Assembly (NCBI GenBank): GCA_029262235.1
Contig: JAJCZU010000008.1
Location: 248,001 to 312,000, forward strand
Source: Candidatus Eiseniibacteriota bacterium
Lineage (GTDB): Bacteria; Orphanbacterota; Orphanbacteria; Orphanbacterales; Orphanbacteraceae
DNA length: 64,000 nt
Reading direction: 5' to 3'
The notes under the pieces are model-generated. The model ran no database searches and was not told where the DNA came from. It worked only from the letters and a program-made list of their open reading frames with translations. A program made the translations under genes and the position numbers. Below are positions 2 through 52,014 of the stretch, piece after piece; the first letter of the stretch is position 1, and each line of letters begins with the position of its first letter.

Positions 2-1546
2 GGGCTCTTCGGCAGCGAGCACTACGCCGCGGCGGCCGCAACGGCGGGCGACAACATTCTGGGCGTCGTGAACTGCGACATGATCGCCTGGTACAACGCG
101 CAGTATCAGATCGACATCGAAGGCGAAAACGCGTGGGCGGCGCTCATGCAGGTCATGGACGATGCGTGCACGGAATTCACGACGCTGAACACCGTGCAGA
201 CGTTCTTCAGCTTCGGCTCGGATCACGTGCCGTTCCAGAATGAAGGCTTCCCGGCGTTTCTCGCGATCGAATCCGAGTATGGTTCGTACCCCTGCTATCA
301 CGTGACGTGCGACACATCCGACAACAACAAGTACACGTTCGGCTGGGAAGTCACGAAGGCGTGCATCGCCACGATCGCGCATCTCGCCGACCCGGTCGGC
401 CTCTCGATTCAGCACACGCCGATCGCGAACACGCAGGACACGGTCGGCCCGTACACCGTGACGGCCGTGATCACTTCGCCCGACCCGATCATCGCCGACT
501 CGCTCCGCATGCACTACGCGATCGACGGCGGCGGCTTCACGAACGTGCTCATGACGCCGACTGGCGGCACCGACGAATACAGCGCCGACATTCCGGGGCA
601 GAGTTCGAACACGACCATTACCTATTATATTGCCGCCGCCGACTCGACCGGGCGAAGCGAAACGAGTCCGGCCGGCGCGCCCGGGTCGGTGCACCAGTTC
701 TTCATCGGCAGCGTGCAGACGTTCGCATTCGAAAATTTCGAGTCGGCCGTGATCGGATGGTCGCACGGCGGATCGAACGACGACTGGGAGCTCGACGCGC
801 CGCAGGGACTCGCGGAGGATCCGGCAACAGCATCCTCCGGTACCATGGCGTACGGAAACGACCTGACCGGGCTCGGAGCGAGCTCCGGCAAGTACGAGAA
901 CAACTCCGACAACTGGCTGCAGTCCCCTTCGATCGACTGCACGGACTACACCGACGTCAAACTGTCGTTCCAGCGCTGGCTCGCCGTCGAGCGGTCGAAC
1001 AACCAGCAGTGGGACTGGGCGCGCGTTCTCGTGAACGGCAACATCATCTGGGAGAGCCCGTCGGGCGCGAATCTGATCGACGCGAGCTGGACGTTCCAGG
1101 AATTCGACATCAGCGCCTACGCCGACAACAACCCGAGCGTCGTGGTGCGCTTCGAACTGCACTCGGACGTATCGCTCTCGTTCGGCGGATGGACGATCGA
1201 CGACTTCAAATTCACGGGAATCGGGCCGCCGACCGCGACCGACGTCGCGGGCTCGGACGCCGCCCCTCGTTCGATGCGCCTCTTTGCGAACACGCCGAAC
1301 CCGTTCAACCCGACCACGAGCATCCGTTTCGCGCTTCCCGCGCCCGCGGAGATCGAGCTCGCGGTGTACGACATCTCCGGGCGCCGCGTGAAGACGCTGG
1401 CAGCGGGTCAGTTCCCGGCGGGCGAGCACGCCGCCACGTGGACCGGTATCGACGAATCGGGCCGCCCGGCCGCGTCAGGCATCTATTTCTACCGGCTTAC
1501 GGGGGCGGACGAGACGAAGATCCGCAAGATGCTCCTCGTCCGCTAG
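2..1546 (+). CDS. Secreted M28-family metallopeptidase with C-terminal FlgD-Ig-like sorting domain (5' truncated)
   Basis: The frame is open to the window edge, so the N-terminus and signal peptide are missing. The first visible residues, GLFGSEHYAA, match the stretch after the catalytic Glu in M28 peptidases. VNCDM fits the metal-binding Asp strand, SDHVPF and YHVTCDTSDN fit the remaining His/Asp ligand region. This supports a zinc aminopeptidase or carboxypeptidase acting outside the cytoplasm. Beta-rich accessory domains follow. The last ~80 residues form a FlgD-Ig/T9SS-type sorting module (TPNPFNPTTSIRF, YDISGRRVKTL, SGIYFYRL, KMLLVR), also seen in four other proteins here. Three hairpin-forming 23-bp repeats start at the stop codon. 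Family is fairly certain; substrate is unknown. Confidence 0.85.
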   Translation, partial: GLFGSEHYAAAAATAGDNILGVVNCDMIAWYNAQYQIDIEGENAWAALMQVMDDACTEFTTLNTVQTFFSFGSDHVPFQNEGFPAFLAIESEYGSYPCYHVTCDTSDNNKYTFGWEVTKACIATIAHLADPVGLSIQHTPIANTQDTVGPYTVTAVITSPDPIIADSLRMHYAIDGGGFTNVLMTPTGGTDEYSADIPGQSSNTTITYYIAAADSTGRSETSPAGAPGSVHQFFIGSVQTFAFENFESAVIGWSHGGSNDDWELDAPQGLAEDPATASSGTMAYGNDLTGLGASSGKYENNSDNWLQSPSIDCTDYTDVKLSFQRWLAVERSNNQQWDWARVLVNGNIIWESPSGANLIDASWTFQEFDISAYADNNPSVVVRFELHSDVSLSFGGWTIDDFKFTGIGPPTATDVAGSDAAPRSMRLFANTPNPFNPTTSIRFALPAPAEIELAVYDISGRRVKTLAAGQFPAGEHAATWTGIDESGRPAASGIYFYRLTGADETKIRKMLLVR

Positions 1547-19773: not shown

Positions 19774-21063
19774 ATGAAAACGACAGCAACCGCATGGAAT
19801 CTCGCCCTGGTGGGCCTTGTGGCCGCGGTCTGCATGGCCCTCGCGGCGCCCCTCGTCCGGGCCGATGGTTACGTTCGGATCGAGGCGGACAGCGACGGCC
19901 GGTACAACGTCGGCGTCGGGTATTCCAGCGACAACAACGACTATTATGATGACGGCGCCTGGTACGAAGACGAACTCGCGCCCTACGGGCGTTGGCGCTA
20001 CATCGAATCGCTGCAGACCGAGATGTGGTTCCCGTACGTCGACGAAACCTGGCGTCCGTACACCGACGGCCACTGGATCAACACGAAACACGGCTGGACG
20101 TGGGTCGCCTACGAACCGTGGGGAGACACTCCGCATCACTTCGGGCGCTGGGTCTATCTGAAGCGCGCCGGATGGGGCTGGGTCCCCGGCGATGAATGGG
20201 GTCCCGCGTGGGTCACCTGGGGCGTTGCCGACGGCCATATCGGATGGGCTCCGATCCCGCCCGCCAACTGGGTCTATCACGACCGGTTCGACTACGCCTA
20301 CTCAGGCAACGTCAGCTACGGCTACGGCGGCGACTTCGGCTATCACCGCAGTGGCCTCGACTTCAACTTGTGGGTGTTCGTCTCGAACGGACGCTTCTAC
20401 GACTCCCACGTGCGACTGAACCTGGTTTCCGCCGGCAGCTGTGCCGGATGGTTCCAGACACGTCGCGTGCTGCCCATCGGGCCGCGGCTCCACTCGCACT
20501 ACGTGAGCCGTTATTGCGCGGCACCGATTCGCACCGTTGTTCTCGATCGTCACAATCATAGCTACGGCAATCACAAGATCGCGTACTACAAGCCGCACGG
20601 CCAGACGCAGAAGATCAAGGAACGCGGCCGCTACGGTGTGTACACGAAACGGCAGCCTGTCTATCGCGCCCAGTCCAAGCGAAGCGCAGACAATAGCCGC
20701 AGCGCCAAGATCGTGCCGAAGTCGAACGTGACCAATCGTTCGAACAAAGCAAACGCGCAATCAACGCGCTACAAGTCGAGCGATACGAGATCCACGCCAT
20801 CGAAGTCGCAGGTCACGCGCTCGCAACAGCGATCCGCACCCGACAAGGCGCAGGTCACGCGCTCGCAGAAGCGATCCGCGCCCGACAAATCACAGGTCAC
20901 GCGTTCGCAGAAACGATCCGCGCCCGACAAATCGCAGGTCACGCGTTCGCAGAAACGATCCGCGCCGTCCAAGACGACCGTTGCCGAGCGCTCCTCCTCG
21001 CGCGACATCAGCGACAAGCGCTCCGCGCCCTCTCGCTCACGCGACACCAAAAAACGCCGCTGA
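19774..21063 (+). CDS. DUF6600-type secreted protein with repetitive basic C-terminus
   Basis: 429 residues from ATG at 19774 (GGGAGG at 19763-19768); the longer frame from 19696 is rejected. Signal peptide about 1-30 (NLALVGLVAAVCMALAAPLVRADG). The core has tryptophan-rich repeats typical of DUF6600/YXWV-type proteins: LAPYGRWRYI, WRPYTDGHWINTKHGWTWVAYEPWGD, HFGRWVYLKRAGWGWVPGDEWGPAWVTW, GHIGWAPIPP (about 65-165). The last ~130 residues are strongly basic and low-complexity, including four 14-residue repeats (SQVTRSQKRSAPDK). A strong terminator follows. Such proteins are predicted periplasmic or surface proteins; the basic tail could bind an anionic polymer (inference). Confidence 0.85.
   Translation: MKTTATAWNLALVGLVAAVCMALAAPLVRADGYVRIEADSDGRYNVGVGYSSDNNDYYDDGAWYEDELAPYGRWRYIESLQTEMWFPYVDETWRPYTDGHWINTKHGWTWVAYEPWGDTPHHFGRWVYLKRAGWGWVPGDEWGPAWVTWGVADGHIGWAPIPPANWVYHDRFDYAYSGNVSYGYGGDFGYHRSGLDFNLWVFVSNGRFYDSHVRLNLVSAGSCAGWFQTRRVLPIGPRLHSHYVSRYCAAPIRTVVLDRHNHSYGNHKIAYYKPHGQTQKIKERGRYGVYTKRQPVYRAQSKRSADNSRSAKIVPKSNVTNRSNKANAQSTRYKSSDTRSTPSKSQVTRSQQRSAPDKAQVTRSQKRSAPDKSQVTRSQKRSAPDKSQVTRSQKRSAPSKTTVAERSSSRDISDKRSAPSRSRDTKKRR
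20806..20973. repeat. Four 42-bp tandem repeats coding a basic 14-residue unit
   Basis: Consecutive 42-bp units encode (S/A)QVTRSQ(Q/K)RSAP(D/S)K four times. Units 2-4 are nearly identical in DNA, which indicates recent expansion or homogenisation. The rest of the tail contains related SxxRS/KRSAP fragments that look like decayed units. Confidence 0.9.
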
Positions 21064-21067
21064 TAAA

Positions 21068-21093
21068 AAGGGCGGTCCCTCGGGACCGCCCTT
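21068..21093 (+). terminator. Rho-independent terminator after the DUF6600 gene
   Basis: AAGGGCGGTCCC (21068-21079) and GGGACCGCCCTT (21082-21093) form a perfect 12-bp stem with a 2-nt nominal loop (TC), followed by a pyrimidine-rich, T-containing tail (CCTTCTCTTTCC). It begins 5 bp after the stop codon. Confidence 0.85.
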
Positions 21094-21179: not shown

Positions 21180-21261
21180 GGAGAAATCGGTTCTCGGATC
21201 GGCGAGGCCTCTTTACTTGGCCATTTGGCCAGGCCGAGCCGTCGAGAGAACTGATTTCTCC
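21180..21261. repeat. Long intergenic hairpin element A with conserved TACTTGGCCATTTGGCC apex
   Basis: Arms 21180-21210 and 21231-21261 pair as GGAGAAATC/GATTTCTCC, GGTTCTC/GAGAACT (one G-T), CGGC/GCCG and GGCCT/AGGCC, with a 4x4 internal loop and a 2x2 mismatch. The 20-nt apex contains two copies of TTGGCCA/TTTGGCCA. Element B at 50805-50901 has the same apex, closing stem and GTTCTC segment but different, still complementary, outer arms. It lies between the convergent DUF6600 and cysK genes, flanked on both sides by C/T-rich DNA (about 21091-21150 and 21264-21310). Probably a dispersed palindromic repeat. The gap 21064-21299 has no gene. Confidence 0.85.
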
Positions 21262-21299: not shown

Positions 21300-22196
21300 C
21301 TACTCCCCTTCCATCTTAAACAAATCCGTACTGAAGTACCGCTCCCCGCGATCGCAAACCAGCGTGACCACGTTCCCGCGGTCGATTCGCTCGGCAACCT
21401 TGCGCGCGGCGTAGAGGTTCGCGCCGGTCGAGATGCCGGCGATGATGCCTTCCTTGCGCGCGATGAGTTTGCCGTTCGCGATCGCGTCTTCGTCCGTGAC
21501 TTCGAACGTTTCTTCGATCCGGGCGCGATCGTAAATCGGCGGCTGGTATCCTTCGGAGCTGTGCTTGAGTCCGTCGATGCGGCTCCCCTGGCCCGCGGGC
21601 TCCACTGCGTACACTTTCGCGTCTACGCCGGCCTGTTCGAACGCGCGGCTCACTCCCATGAGACAACCGCCGGTACCGAATCCGCTCACGAACGCCGCCA
21701 CGTCACCCTTCAGGTCGCGCACGATCTCGGCGCCGGTTCCGATGCAGTGCGCGTTCACGTTGTCTTCGTTTTCGTTCTGATCGATATAGAAATATTTCTC
21801 CGGATCGGCCGCCGCGAGTTCCTTGGCGCCGTAAATATGGCTGTCCGGATTGTCTTTCGTCGTAAGGCAGAGTTCGGCTCCCCAGAACGCGAGCATCTTC
21901 CTGCGCTCGATCGTTTTGCGCTCCGACATGAAGAACCGGAGCTTGTAGCCCTTCGCGGCGCACACCATCCCGAGTGCGATGCCGGTGTTACCACTCGTCG
22001 CTTCGATGATCGTCATGCCCGGTTTCAGACGGCCCGACTTCTCGGCCTCTTCGATCATGTGAAGCGCGATGCGATCTTTGAGCGACCCGCTGGGATTGCA
22101 GAATTCGAGCTTCGCCCAGATCCGCACAGCGGGATTCGGGCTCTGGCTTTTCAGTTCGATCAGTGGCGTATTGCCGATGCACTGCAGAATGCTCAT
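21300..22196 (-). CDS. cysK: Cysteine synthase (O-acetylserine sulfhydrylase family)
   Basis: 298 residues from ATG at 22196, which follows GAGGAAG; the longer frame to 22247 adds 17 unrelated residues. This is a fold type II PLP enzyme: LQCIGNTPLIEL at the start, PLP lysine K40 in NPSGSLKDR, the substrate loop EATSGNTGIALG and the phosphate loop GFGTGGCLMG. It makes cysteine from O-acetylserine and sulfide in the cytoplasm. CysK, CysM and CBS-type activities are not separable with certainty. It converges on the DUF6600 gene with hairpin element A in between. Confidence 0.9.
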   Translation of the reverse strand: MSILQCIGNTPLIELKSQSPNPAVRIWAKLEFCNPSGSLKDRIALHMIEEAEKSGRLKPGMTIIEATSGNTGIALGMVCAAKGYKLRFFMSERKTIERRKMLAFWGAELCLTTKDNPDSHIYGAKELAAADPEKYFYIDQNENEDNVNAHCIGTGAEIVRDLKGDVAAFVSGFGTGGCLMGVSRAFEQAGVDAKVYAVEPAGQGSRIDGLKHSSEGYQPPIYDRARIEETFEVTDEDAIANGKLIARKEGIIAGISTGANLYAARKVAERIDRGNVVTLVCDRGERYFSTDLFKMEGE

Positions 22197-22379
22197 GACT
22201 TCCTCTTTGGCACGTTCGTTCCCTTCGCCCGGCGCTGAATCTCTCATACTGGCATAAATTGCCCGATCCCGCTACAGGGGGAGAAAAGGAGTGGCAGATC
22301 GCCGTGGCATCTTGCACACTGACGGTGCGCGCTCACGCGAAGACCACATAAATGGCCATATAATTGAGGGAGTTGATAT

Positions 22380-48825: not shown

Positions 48826-50400
48826 CTAAAGTAAAACGTTCGAAGATTCGGTGCGGCGCGATCCCGCGTCCGCCGTTTGTCGTCTGGTGATCAGTTCGCC
48901 GATCGTGCGTATCCCCTGTTCGATGCGATCTTCCGGTTCTTTTGTAAACGAGAGCCGGAACGTGTTCGTTCCGGAGCCGTCGAGATGAAACAGTTCGCCC
49001 GGCGCGAAATTGACGCCGGCGCGGCGCGCCTCGATCAGAAGATCCACCGTGTTCATGGAAACGGGGAGTTCGATCCAGAGCGACATGCCGCCGTCCGGCT
49101 TCGTCCAGCGAACGTCAGACGGAAAAAAGCGCTCGATGGCGCTCAGCATGGCCTGCATGCGATTGTTGTTGATCGCGAGAACGCGCTCCAGATGCTCGTC
49201 GAGAAGCCCGCGTTCGCAGAAGCGGTGAATCGCGACCTGGGCGAGGCGGCTCGGCGCGAGATCCGTGTACGTCCGGATCTTGCGGAACGGATCGCAGAAC
49301 GCTTTCGGAACCGCAAGCCATCCGAGGCGGAGCCCCGGGAAGAGCATCTTCGAGAACGTGCCGAGGTAGAGCACGTGCTCGTGCCCTTTGAGCGCCTTGA
49401 ACGACGCAACCGGCTCGCCGGTGTAACGGAGATCCGCGTCGAAATGATCTTCGAGCAGCGGGACGCCGTGGCGCACCGCGACTTCGAGCACCTCTTTGCG
49501 CCGCGCGAGCGGCATCGTAATCCCGGTCGGATTCTGGAAGTTCGGCATCGAATAAATCAGTTTGGCGCTGCGGCGCGTCAGTTCGTCGTCGAGCAGGTCC
49601 GGACGCATGCCGTGCTCGTCCATCGCGATCGGGACGAGTTCCGTTTCGTAGAGCTGAAATACGCCGATCGCGTTGTGATACGTCGGCGACTCCACCATGA
49701 TGCGGTCACCGCGATCGAAGAGCAGCTTGCTGACGAGATCGAGGCCCTGCTGCGAACCGCCGAGTATGAAGATTTCGTCCTCGTTGATCGACGCCCCCTG
49801 CTCGCGAAGGCGGTTTGCGAGCCATGCCCGCAGAGGCGGGTACCCTTCGCGTGAGCCGTAATCGAGAATGCCCGGCCCCATTTCGGCCATCGTTTCGTTC
49901 ATGACCGCGCGGAAGTCTTCGAGGGGAAAGTGATCGGAGTCGGGCACGAGGCCGCCCAGTTCGATGCGCGGCACGTTGTCGGTAACGGAGAGCCGGGCGA
50001 GGGCGTCAGGTCCCGATCGCGTGCGGCGCGACAGCGTGTGCTCGATGCTTCCGCGATTCGCGCCGCGGGGTCGGTTCCGGCCGCGCCCTGTCGGGGCCGC
50101 TTCGCCGGTACGAACGCCCGCGCGGTCCGGACCGCCCATGATCCCACTCGGGCCACGGTCGCCGACATACGTACCGCTCCCGACGCGCGTTTGGACCGAG
50201 CCGCGGCGTTCGAGTTCGGAATAAGCCTGGGCGACGGTGTTACGGTTCACGCTAAGCAGAACCGCGAGCCGCCTGATCGACGGCAGGCGCTCTCCCGCCC
50301 CGAGCTCGCCTTCACGCACGAGCGCGTCGATGCCGTCCGCGATCTGCTGATGGATCGGCCTGGTTTCCGATCGATCTATGACAATGTTCTGCATGAGCAT
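48826..50400 (-). CDS. pdxR: PdxR-type MocR regulator (GntR HTH plus aminotransferase-like domain)
   Basis: 524 residues from ATG at 50400 (GGGGTGG 8 nt upstream); the frame to 50460 contains the promoter and is rejected. Winged helix about 8-75 ([49 protein letters not shown]), a Gly/Arg-rich linker (about 80-125), then a fold-type-I aminotransferase domain with PLP lysine K351 in [26 protein letters not shown] and [11 protein letters not shown]. PdxR proteins sense PLP and control pdxST. Here the gene is codirectional and directly upstream of pdxS rather than divergent from it, and its own promoter carries a palindrome. Confidence 0.92.
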
Positions 50401-50431
50401 GACACTTACCACCCCGGCTGTTGATCCACCT

Positions 50432-50460
50432 ATTATATCGGCAAGATTTCTTACAGACAA
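50432..50460 (-). promoter_or_regulatory. Promoter of pdxR (and probably the pdx unit)
   Basis: Read on the minus strand: TTGTCT (50460-50455), 17-bp spacer, TATAAT (50437-50432, perfect). The -35 matches 4 of 6. The expected start is near 50425, leaving a ~25-nt leader before ATG 50400. Confidence 0.65.
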
Positions 50461-50499: not shown

Positions 50500-50578
50500 G
50501 GGGTGGGTCCTGACGCGCCGGGACACCCCGATCTCGACGGGGCTCGATCGGGGCCCCGTCCGGCGCGCCACCCACCCC
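50500..50578. repeat. Large imperfect palindrome C in the pdxR-EEP intergenic region
   Basis: Three perfectly pairing blocks, GGGGTGGGT/ACCCACCCC (9 bp, 50500-50508 with 50570-50578), CGCGCCGG/CCGGCGCG (8 bp, 50514-50521 with 50560-50567) and CCCCGATC/GATCGGGG (8 bp, 50526-50533 with 50546-50553), form a 79-bp hairpin with small internal loops and a 12-nt apex. Its sequence does not resemble elements A and B. TTTT follows at 50581-50584 on the plus strand, but no gene reads into it from that side. Confidence 0.8.
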
Positions 50579-50589
50579 ACTTTTCGAGC

Positions 50590-50804: not shown

Positions 50805-50901
50805 GAGGCGCGAGGAGTTGTTCTCCGTATCCCGCTCGGCCTCCGTACTTGGCCATTTGGCCAGGTCGAGCGGGTCGAGGAGAACAACGACCTCGCGCCT
50901 C
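50805..50901. repeat. Long intergenic hairpin element B with conserved TACTTGGCCATTTGGCC apex
   Basis: Arms 50805-50842 and 50863-50901 pair as GAGGCGCGAGG/CCTCGCGCCTC (11 bp perfect), GTTGTTCTCC/GGAGAACAAC (10 bp perfect), CCCGCTCG/CGAGCGGG and GGCCT/AGGTC. The 20-nt apex differs from that of element A (21180-21261) only in its first three bases. Outer-arm sequences differ from A but remain complementary, so structure has been kept while sequence changed. It sits between the divergent pdxR and EEP-family genes. Confidence 0.85.
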
Positions 50902-50964: not shown

Positions 50965-52014
50965 ATGAGTGCTGCCCGTACCATTATTACCGTTCTGTGC
51001 ATGGTCGCCGGATTCGCCGCGACGTTGTCGCTGATCCCGTTCGAGGCGTGGCCGGTCGAGCTTGCGGCAAGCTTCCGCCTGCAGATCGCCGTGGTCGCAA
51101 CGCTGGCGGCTGCGCTGGCGCTCGGCCTGCGGGCCCGCGCGCCGGCCATGATCGCGGGAGCCGCGGCCCTGATCTGCTGGGCTTCTGTCCTTCCGTTTGC
51201 CGTCCCCGGGCCGAAGGACGATACGGCGGAGGCGTTTGGGCGGGAGGCCTCTTCATTCCGCGTTCTGACGATCAACCTCGAATGGTCGAATCGAAATGCA
51301 AATGCCGTGCTCGGCGCGGTGCGCGAGGCGAACCCGGACATCCTCGTCCTTCAGGAAGTGGACAACTGGTGGCGCGAGCAGTTCGGCGCGCTCACGGACA
51401 TCTTTCCGATGCAGCGATTCGATCCCCTTTCGCGCCGGCCGGGAGTCGCGGTTCTTCTCGGGAAGAAGATCGAACTCCGCGACGAGGCGTGGCTGCCGCT
51501 TCACGGACGCCCGTATGCCGATTTCGTGCTCGCGGTCGCGCGGGAAGGCGGCTCCGGATCGGAGGGTGGCCTCGAATCGCCCGGCTCGACAATGGCGCCC
51601 GCGTTTCGCCTTACGGCGCTGCATGCGCTCCCGCCACGGTCGGCCCTGCTTTATCGCGCGCGGAAACGCCAGCTCGACGACGTGCGCGGGCATCTGCTCG
51701 CGCACGCAACGACGGAACCGCAGCTCGTGGTCGGCGACTTCAACACGACGATCTGGTCCCCTTCCTATAGAAAATTCACGCGTGAACTGCATCTCGAACG
51801 GGCTCGCCTCGGCTACGGTCTCGTGCCCACATGGCCTACATGGAATACGTTGCTTCAAGTGCCGATTGACCATATTCTGCACTCGCCAGGTTTCGTCGCG
51901 ACCAATACGAGATCGATCACGATCCCGGGCAGCGACCATCACGGCCTCCTCGCCGACGTGCGACTGAAAGCGCACGCACACGGGGACGAGCCTGCACCGG
52001 CGAAGGATTCATGA
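50965..52014 (+). CDS. Membrane-anchored endonuclease/exonuclease/phosphatase (EEP) family protein
   Basis: 349 residues from ATG at 50965 (ATG 50953 is four codons earlier; neither has a clean ribosome site). The longer frame to 50764 runs through hairpin B and is rejected. Three hydrophobic helices occupy about 5-75. The EEP domain follows: FRVLTINLEWSNRN, PDILVLQEVDNWWREQ, PGVAVLLGKK, LVVGDFNTTIWSPSYR and PGSDHHGLLADV (catalytic Asp-His). Members cleave nucleic acids or phosphodiester lipids; the membrane helices suggest activity outside the membrane. The stop overlaps the next start (ATGA), so it is coupled to the SGNH/TPR gene. Confidence 0.88.
   Translation: MSAARTIITVLCMVAGFAATLSLIPFEAWPVELAASFRLQIAVVATLAAALALGLRARAPAMIAGAAALICWASVLPFAVPGPKDDTAEAFGREASSFRVLTINLEWSNRNANAVLGAVREANPDILVLQEVDNWWREQFGALTDIFPMQRFDPLSRRPGVAVLLGKKIELRDEAWLPLHGRPYADFVLAVAREGGSGSEGGLESPGSTMAPAFRLTALHALPPRSALLYRARKRQLDDVRGHLLAHATTEPQLVVGDFNTTIWSPSYRKFTRELHLERARLGYGLVPTWPTWNTLLQVPIDHILHSPGFVATNTRSITIPGSDHHGLLADVRLKAHAHGDEPAPAKDS

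Follow-up and report, generated by a model that had tools for sequence, protein, structure and literature searches.

Two intergenic hairpins in the window, by which we mean the whole 64,000-nt stretch of DNA analysed here, raise the question of what is conserved in an element whose apex is the same at both places and whose arms are not. The common apex, TACTTGGCCATTTGGCC (17 nt), already noted in the initial annotation, has exactly two occurrences in the window, at 21214-21230 and 50846-50862; shuffles of the window gave a mean of 0.05 matches, and none of 100 reached two with three mismatches permitted. Both elements fold as single hairpins, at 50805-50901 with -73.2 kcal/mol (z -10.6) and at 21180-21261 with -51.3 kcal/mol (z -7.6), and neither value was equalled in 200 shuffles. 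Under the covariance model R1 described below, the first scores 97.3 bits (E 9.8e-24; core 50813-50892) and the second 84.7 bits (core 21182-21259). Both are assigned to the minus strand, the strand given for an element being its family orientation, i.e. the sense of the gene that usually lies upstream.

The two hairpins differ in their surroundings. The element at 21180-21261 has the usual orientation, as it is faced by the 3' end of a PALP-domain (cysteine synthase-like) gene on the minus strand (21300-22247), and its core starts 41 nt beyond the stop codon of that gene. A DUF6600 gene on the plus strand (19774-21063) converges on the same element and has its own ordinary intrinsic terminator at 21068-21093 (plus strand), made up of AAGGGCGGTCCCTCGGGACCGCCCTT and a T-rich tail; thus the genome uses canonical terminators as well. 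The element at 50805-50901 is an exception to the 3'-end rule set out below, since it occupies the divergent promoter region between a gene for a GntR-family regulator with an aminotransferase domain (48826-50460, minus strand) and an Exo_endo_phos gene (50965-52014, plus strand), which starts 63 nt after the element if its start codon, picked by eye at 50965 for a reading frame of 51001-52014, is accepted. Just upstream of this element, at 50500-50580, is a copy of a second palindromic repeat family of the same genus (GCGGGTCCTGTCGCGCCG / CGGCGCGACAGGACCCGC), which is also found at L037:6259-6340, L051:10777-10858, L097, L115, L116, L153 and L183.

Three classes of one hairpin family

The initial annotation had taken the two hairpins for members of a dispersed family and had proposed a covariance-model search for more. 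In the 4.47-Mb genome (11 contigs, 95.5% complete), we found 35 copies of the apex with at most two mismatches and none of its reversed control, and model R1, built from 18 cores, returned about 55 copies at E < 1e-7. Two adjoining elements at one contig end (C3:631722-631956) and two at another (C6:75-307) have near-identical scores and spacing; these pairs may be the same DNA, possibly counted twice by R1, and the two contigs probably overlap or break at a repeat. Weaker R1 matches exposed a second class with the apex CCTGGC-nnnn-GGCCAATGGG, for which the corresponding model R2 gave about 33 further strong copies in the genome and 10 matches in the sister species G001. R2 in turn exposed class 3, which is about 115-140 nt long and has a larger apical domain ending in CCTCCAATGGGGCTC; with 31 candidates scored per genome, model R3 identified at least 28 copies here and at least 18 in G001. 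In these model searches, which were limited in the number of candidates returned, the three classes together comprise about 115 copies or more in the genome, so the supposition of a dispersed family was well founded.

Each element consists of a conserved apical motif, followed by stem blocks with conserved internal loops and then by a long outer stem that is specific to its locus but still pairs. In transcript sense, the class 1 motif reads CCTGGCC-AAAT-GGCCAAGTACGGAGG, and the features common to the classes are an apical CCTGGC/GCCAA-type helix or its CCAATGGGG counterpart, a TTCYCC/GGGRAA block and internal loops. Similarity between copies declines gradually outward, without a sharp edge. 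In class 3 (L194-L213, in both species), about 50-60 nt of the apex form a conserved domain, CCTGTCGGGCC..GAAAC..GCCGT.CCCCCGGCCCTCCAATGGGG, that resembles a structured RNA in its own right and is without an Rfam match. Tandem arrays are present, and the same array of two minus and three plus elements is found on both contigs C7 and C8, which indicates spread by duplication. A terminator word, GGCCGGATTCCCTCCGGCC, was considered as an independent mobile hairpin and was dropped, as it has only one exact copy in each of the two species.

The claim that the arms differ and yet pair through compensating changes holds across the family. Among the 18 class 1 copies, 16 of 24 pairs have changed on both sides, a value matched in none of 500 shuffles, and across 70 distinct rows we counted 251 double-side cells, compared with a mean of 71.6 and a maximum of 91 in shuffles; since related copies are included in these counts, the magnitude of the excess should not be taken for a probability. 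Covariation is seen in all three classes (double-side cells 31 versus 7.3 in shuffles for class 2, and 35 versus 10.1 for class 3) and includes the apical helix. A comparison of outer arms that uses no model agrees: in 57 non-redundant copies, the median pairing score of an arm with its own partner is 17, versus 7 for swapped arms, and in 84% of copies own-arm pairing lies above the 95th percentile of swapped arms, although there is no relationship among the outer left arms of different copies (median similarity 0.42). Intermediates with a single-sided mismatch are found among the rows. Thus the folded structure is conserved rather than the sequence, and the initial view that the folded form matters is borne out by strong covariation; neither of the two outcomes that had been named as fatal to that view, a lack of further copies and arm pairing at the level of chance, was observed. 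Within the arms of the elements at L125 (about 1423-1500, minus strand) and L084 (about 500-530), there are also small hairpins, TTGGCCGGATTCCCTCCGGCCC and GTCCGGTGCAGCCGGAGGCTGCACACC, each present in one species only, the orthologous copy in the other species being without them.

Occurrence and turnover within the genus

The models R1, R2 and R3, together with the sequence patterns, match the own genome (G000) and its genus mate G001 and have no match in five other genomes of the same taxonomic family; R3 has none in 109 further genomes from outside that family. The repeats are therefore limited to one genus among the 116 genomes searched. When 84,980 named species genomes were scanned for the apex, four single matches turned up in unrelated taxa, a number near chance; against the covariance model these align weakly, at 20-24 bits, and three of the four do so over the apex alone. 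Nothing was found in viral contigs, and Rfam gave no match at gathering score for the window and none at E up to 1 for the class 3 loci. In G005, a genome from another genus of the taxonomic family, long perfect palindromes at L131:15349-15593 and L138:12040-12573 carry TGGGGACACAATAC in the arm, and their arm changes likewise compensate; this motif agrees with the GGGGWSAS consensus reported for the terminal inverted repeats (TIRs) of Y1-type transposases (PMC3733652).

Genes of G000 and G001 share about 79-93% identity at the DNA level. At four orthologous sites (L083/L045, L084/L039, L106/L125 and L105/L116, G001 named before G000) the element is common to both species, with arms hardly altered at three of them. 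Elsewhere the copies differ in presence between the two species, by either gain or loss. The region L158/L035 has 13 bp in G001 versus 893 bp with five copies in G000, and at L178/L043 and L150/L103, the G001 site holds a short spacer or no comparable sequence. At L183/L089 and L185/L041, G001 carries copies of the second palindromic family where G000 has the hairpin family, and at L157/L047 and L187/L122 it retains an eroded remnant. At one further pair, which adjoins the same gene in both species, G001 (L151) carries a plain terminator with a T tail and G000 (L112) a core inside a similar stem; the short form at L151 retains class 2 signature bases.

Orientation to genes and choice of strand

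All apex-bearing copies are intergenic, and among the 79 copies of classes 1 and 2 only three have a core within a called gene. We oriented each copy by reading its apex as CCTGGCC... and called genes with a simple codon-usage script, individual boundaries of which may be wrong; on this basis, the nearest boundary of the 79 copies is the 3' end of a same-sense gene in 49, the 3' end of an opposite-sense gene in three and a 5' end in 22. Numerous cores lie 20-60 nt beyond the stop codon, most class 3 copies lie 13-91 nt beyond a same-sense stop codon, and some convergent regions hold two copies, each adjoining its own gene and oriented to it (L087, L091, L092). Several copies besides that at 50805-50901 lie next to a gene 5' end or between divergent genes. 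The orientation to gene 3' ends, absent from the initial annotation, is the strongest positional fact, and it suggests an element of the transcript 3' end at least as much as a DNA site for an enzyme. Flanking genes are diverse, as checked with Pfam. The genes just upstream of the elements at L039, L040, L087, L121, L122 and L125 end in an apparent FlgD-like/Por-type sorting domain, which is Pfam-confirmed for L040 and judged from the C-terminal sequence at the other loci.

The elements lack a general T-tract, in agreement with the T tail reported missing from the two window hairpins: of 79 copies, three have at least five T among the 10 nt that follow the stem, and 5.8% of control windows do. 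T-tracts in or after the stem occur in a few copies (C2:405516, C8:67836 and the C7/C8 arrays). A T-tract terminator is thus ruled out as a general description, and these elements do not in general serve as simple intrinsic terminators.

For classes 1 and 2, we found that folding is better on the strand antisense to the adjacent gene, in 70 of 79 cores with RNA parameters and 76 of 79 with DNA parameters, because the conserved mismatches are G.A on that strand; the mismatch is GA/GA in 43 of 70 rows, and the remaining rows nearly always have a Watson-Crick alternative. A strand-neutral count of wobble pairs leans weakly the same way (118:90 overall, p 0.06; 84:56 in the outer arms). Another wobble test (68 G.U versus 15 A.C) was discounted, as its model had been built in one orientation. 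Class 3 points in the opposite direction, since a G.U pair on the gene-sense strand is retained in 27 of 27 copies. As the classes disagree, the strand evidence alone leaves transcript RNA and single-stranded DNA undecided; transcript RNA is favoured because the elements are oriented to gene 3' ends.

Likeness to known repeats and candidate roles

Bacterial genomes commonly carry families of stem-loop repeats (PMC2267715), and the family described here resembles REPs, REPINs and stem-loop repeats, yet it is neither a tagged REP, a REPIN nor an intrinsic terminator by the features that define these. REPs lie mostly downstream of genes, some of them within longer palindromes (PMC3733652). Like REP/BIME repeats of the GTAG and CGTC superfamilies, the elements are high-copy palindromic intergenic repeats that are mostly found downstream of genes and plausibly act as RNA, and CGTC repeats are also without a dedicated transposase (PMC3733652). 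GTAG/CGTC REPs are, however, palindromes of 20-40 bp with an unpaired terminal GTAG or CGTC tag, whereas the core here measures 80-140 nt and a conserved terminal tetranucleotide is absent. Further differences from these superfamilies are an apex that is conserved while the arms vary and a fixed orientation relative to the gene 3' end, and GTAG REPs also have a RAYT (Y1_Tnp) gene flanked by copies, which the present genome lacks. The earlier judgement that this is not a typical REP was sound with respect to the tag. REPINs are long hairpins of similar size in which compensatory changes are reported to be common, but they have invariant inverted ends, a variable middle and a RAYT partner (PMC3116915); the present family shows the reverse, with a conserved middle and ends that differ. 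Stem-loop families such as ERIC and YPAL are likewise intergenic, about 100-170 bp long and predicted to form one stem-loop per family; they are described by sequence that can be aligned over the whole element (PMC2267715), and in the present case alignment between loci extends over the inner part only. Uptake-sequence terminators (DUS/USS pairs) share a repeated word inside gene-end hairpins (PMC1852404), but all apex copies found here are in intergenic hairpins and none are scattered through coding DNA. In integron attC sites, which go with an integron integrase, it is the outer boxes that are conserved, a geometry opposite to that of elements whose outer parts vary; MITEs have conserved terminal inverted repeats and a target-site duplication, and constant ends are absent here. 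Intrinsic (Rho-independent) terminators have a T-tract directly after the stem, which is not the case for this family.

The initial annotation had also suggested looking for a linked enzyme and for target-site duplications. A Y1/RAYT-type transposase (Y1_Tnp, PF01797) has no match in the own genome, and a reverse transcriptase (PF00078), which an RT-mobilised element (group II intron, retron or DGR) would call for, has none in G000 or G001 and is present in three members of the taxonomic family without the element. Target-site duplications are not systematic across the sites compared, a possible 6-bp duplication being seen by eye at one site only (L042).

From these sequence comparisons, we put at about even chances the reading that the family consists of genus-specific, non-autonomous REP-like hairpin repeats that are oriented, putative mRNA 3'-end elements in 3' untranslated regions. 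The hairpin would be transcribed with the upstream gene and would block 3'-to-5' decay, mark the mRNA 3' end, or both. Selection would retain the pairing of the stem and the apical sequence, which would let the arms drift by compensating changes. With lesser confidence, copies may have spread by duplication of 3' UTR segments and perhaps also through some enzyme.

An enzyme has a larger part if the element is instead a mobile one that acts as single-stranded DNA, its antisense-strand hairpin being recognised by a transposase or an HUH/rolling-circle enzyme as at REP/RAYT or IS200/IS605 ends, with the orientation to genes reflecting a choice of target. The better folding of the antisense strand under DNA parameters, its conserved tandem G.A mismatches, the weak wobble bias and the differences in presence between species are all consistent with this, but no Y1_Tnp was found in a 95.5% complete genome, there are no constant ends or tag, the outer arms are unrelated between copies, target-site duplication is not systematic and class 3 conserves G.U pairs on the other strand, so we regard a mobile element of this kind as unlikely. 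The near-perfect outer arms, wholly different between copies, could also arise without any selected function, if template switching in replication copied one arm to the other and the palindromes spread by duplication only. This would account for the tandem arrays and for the hairpins nested in the arms at L125 and L084; it sits poorly with specific mismatches that have been conserved instead of corrected (GA/GA in 43 of 70 rows), with the existence of single-sided intermediates and with the conservation of the apex sequence and of the orientation to gene 3' ends, and we consider it improbable.

The terminators of host genes enter into two further explanations. The core alone might be mobile and inserted into the loop of a pre-existing terminator hairpin, the variable arms then being host terminators. 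There is a precedent in A. variabilis, H. neapolitanus and T. roseum, where published REPs are enclosed in palindromes (PMC3733652), and the L151/L112 pair has the expected appearance, but a deletion fits that pair equally well because class 2 signature bases persist in the short form. Element-free orthologous sites without any palindrome (L178/L043, L158/L035, L150/L103, L181/L040) and the outward fading of similarity without a sharp edge also argue against such insertion, which several empty sites rule out as a general rule and which is possible at one locus; as an account of the family it is quite improbable. That the elements are ordinary intrinsic (bidirectional) terminators, alike by chance or through recent duplication, is very improbable: their 3'-end location and the T-tracts of a few copies would fit, but a 17-nt apex in 35 copies with none in the reversed control, the rarity of T-tracts after the stem and the different appearance of ordinary terminators in this genome, such as that at 21068-21093, would not.

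Under the preferred reading of oriented mRNA 3'-end elements, a bolder form, which is possible but doubtful, is that of a genus-wide set of oriented, structured RNAs placed at the 3' ends of mRNAs, in which the apical motif common to the three size classes is read by a dedicated, putative RNA-binding or processing factor, and the stems may change freely as long as they remain paired. This would be a system for 3'-end formation or stabilisation unlike terminators or REPs. If the preferred reading is right, selection would maintain in this family the folded shape, the orientation to genes and a short apical motif, leaving most of the sequence free, and repeat finders that work on sequence alone would miss most of such a family. 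It would then offer about 115 stems in which compensatory evolution can be measured, and a test bed for deciding whether REP-like repeats work at the level of the transcript or as mobile DNA.
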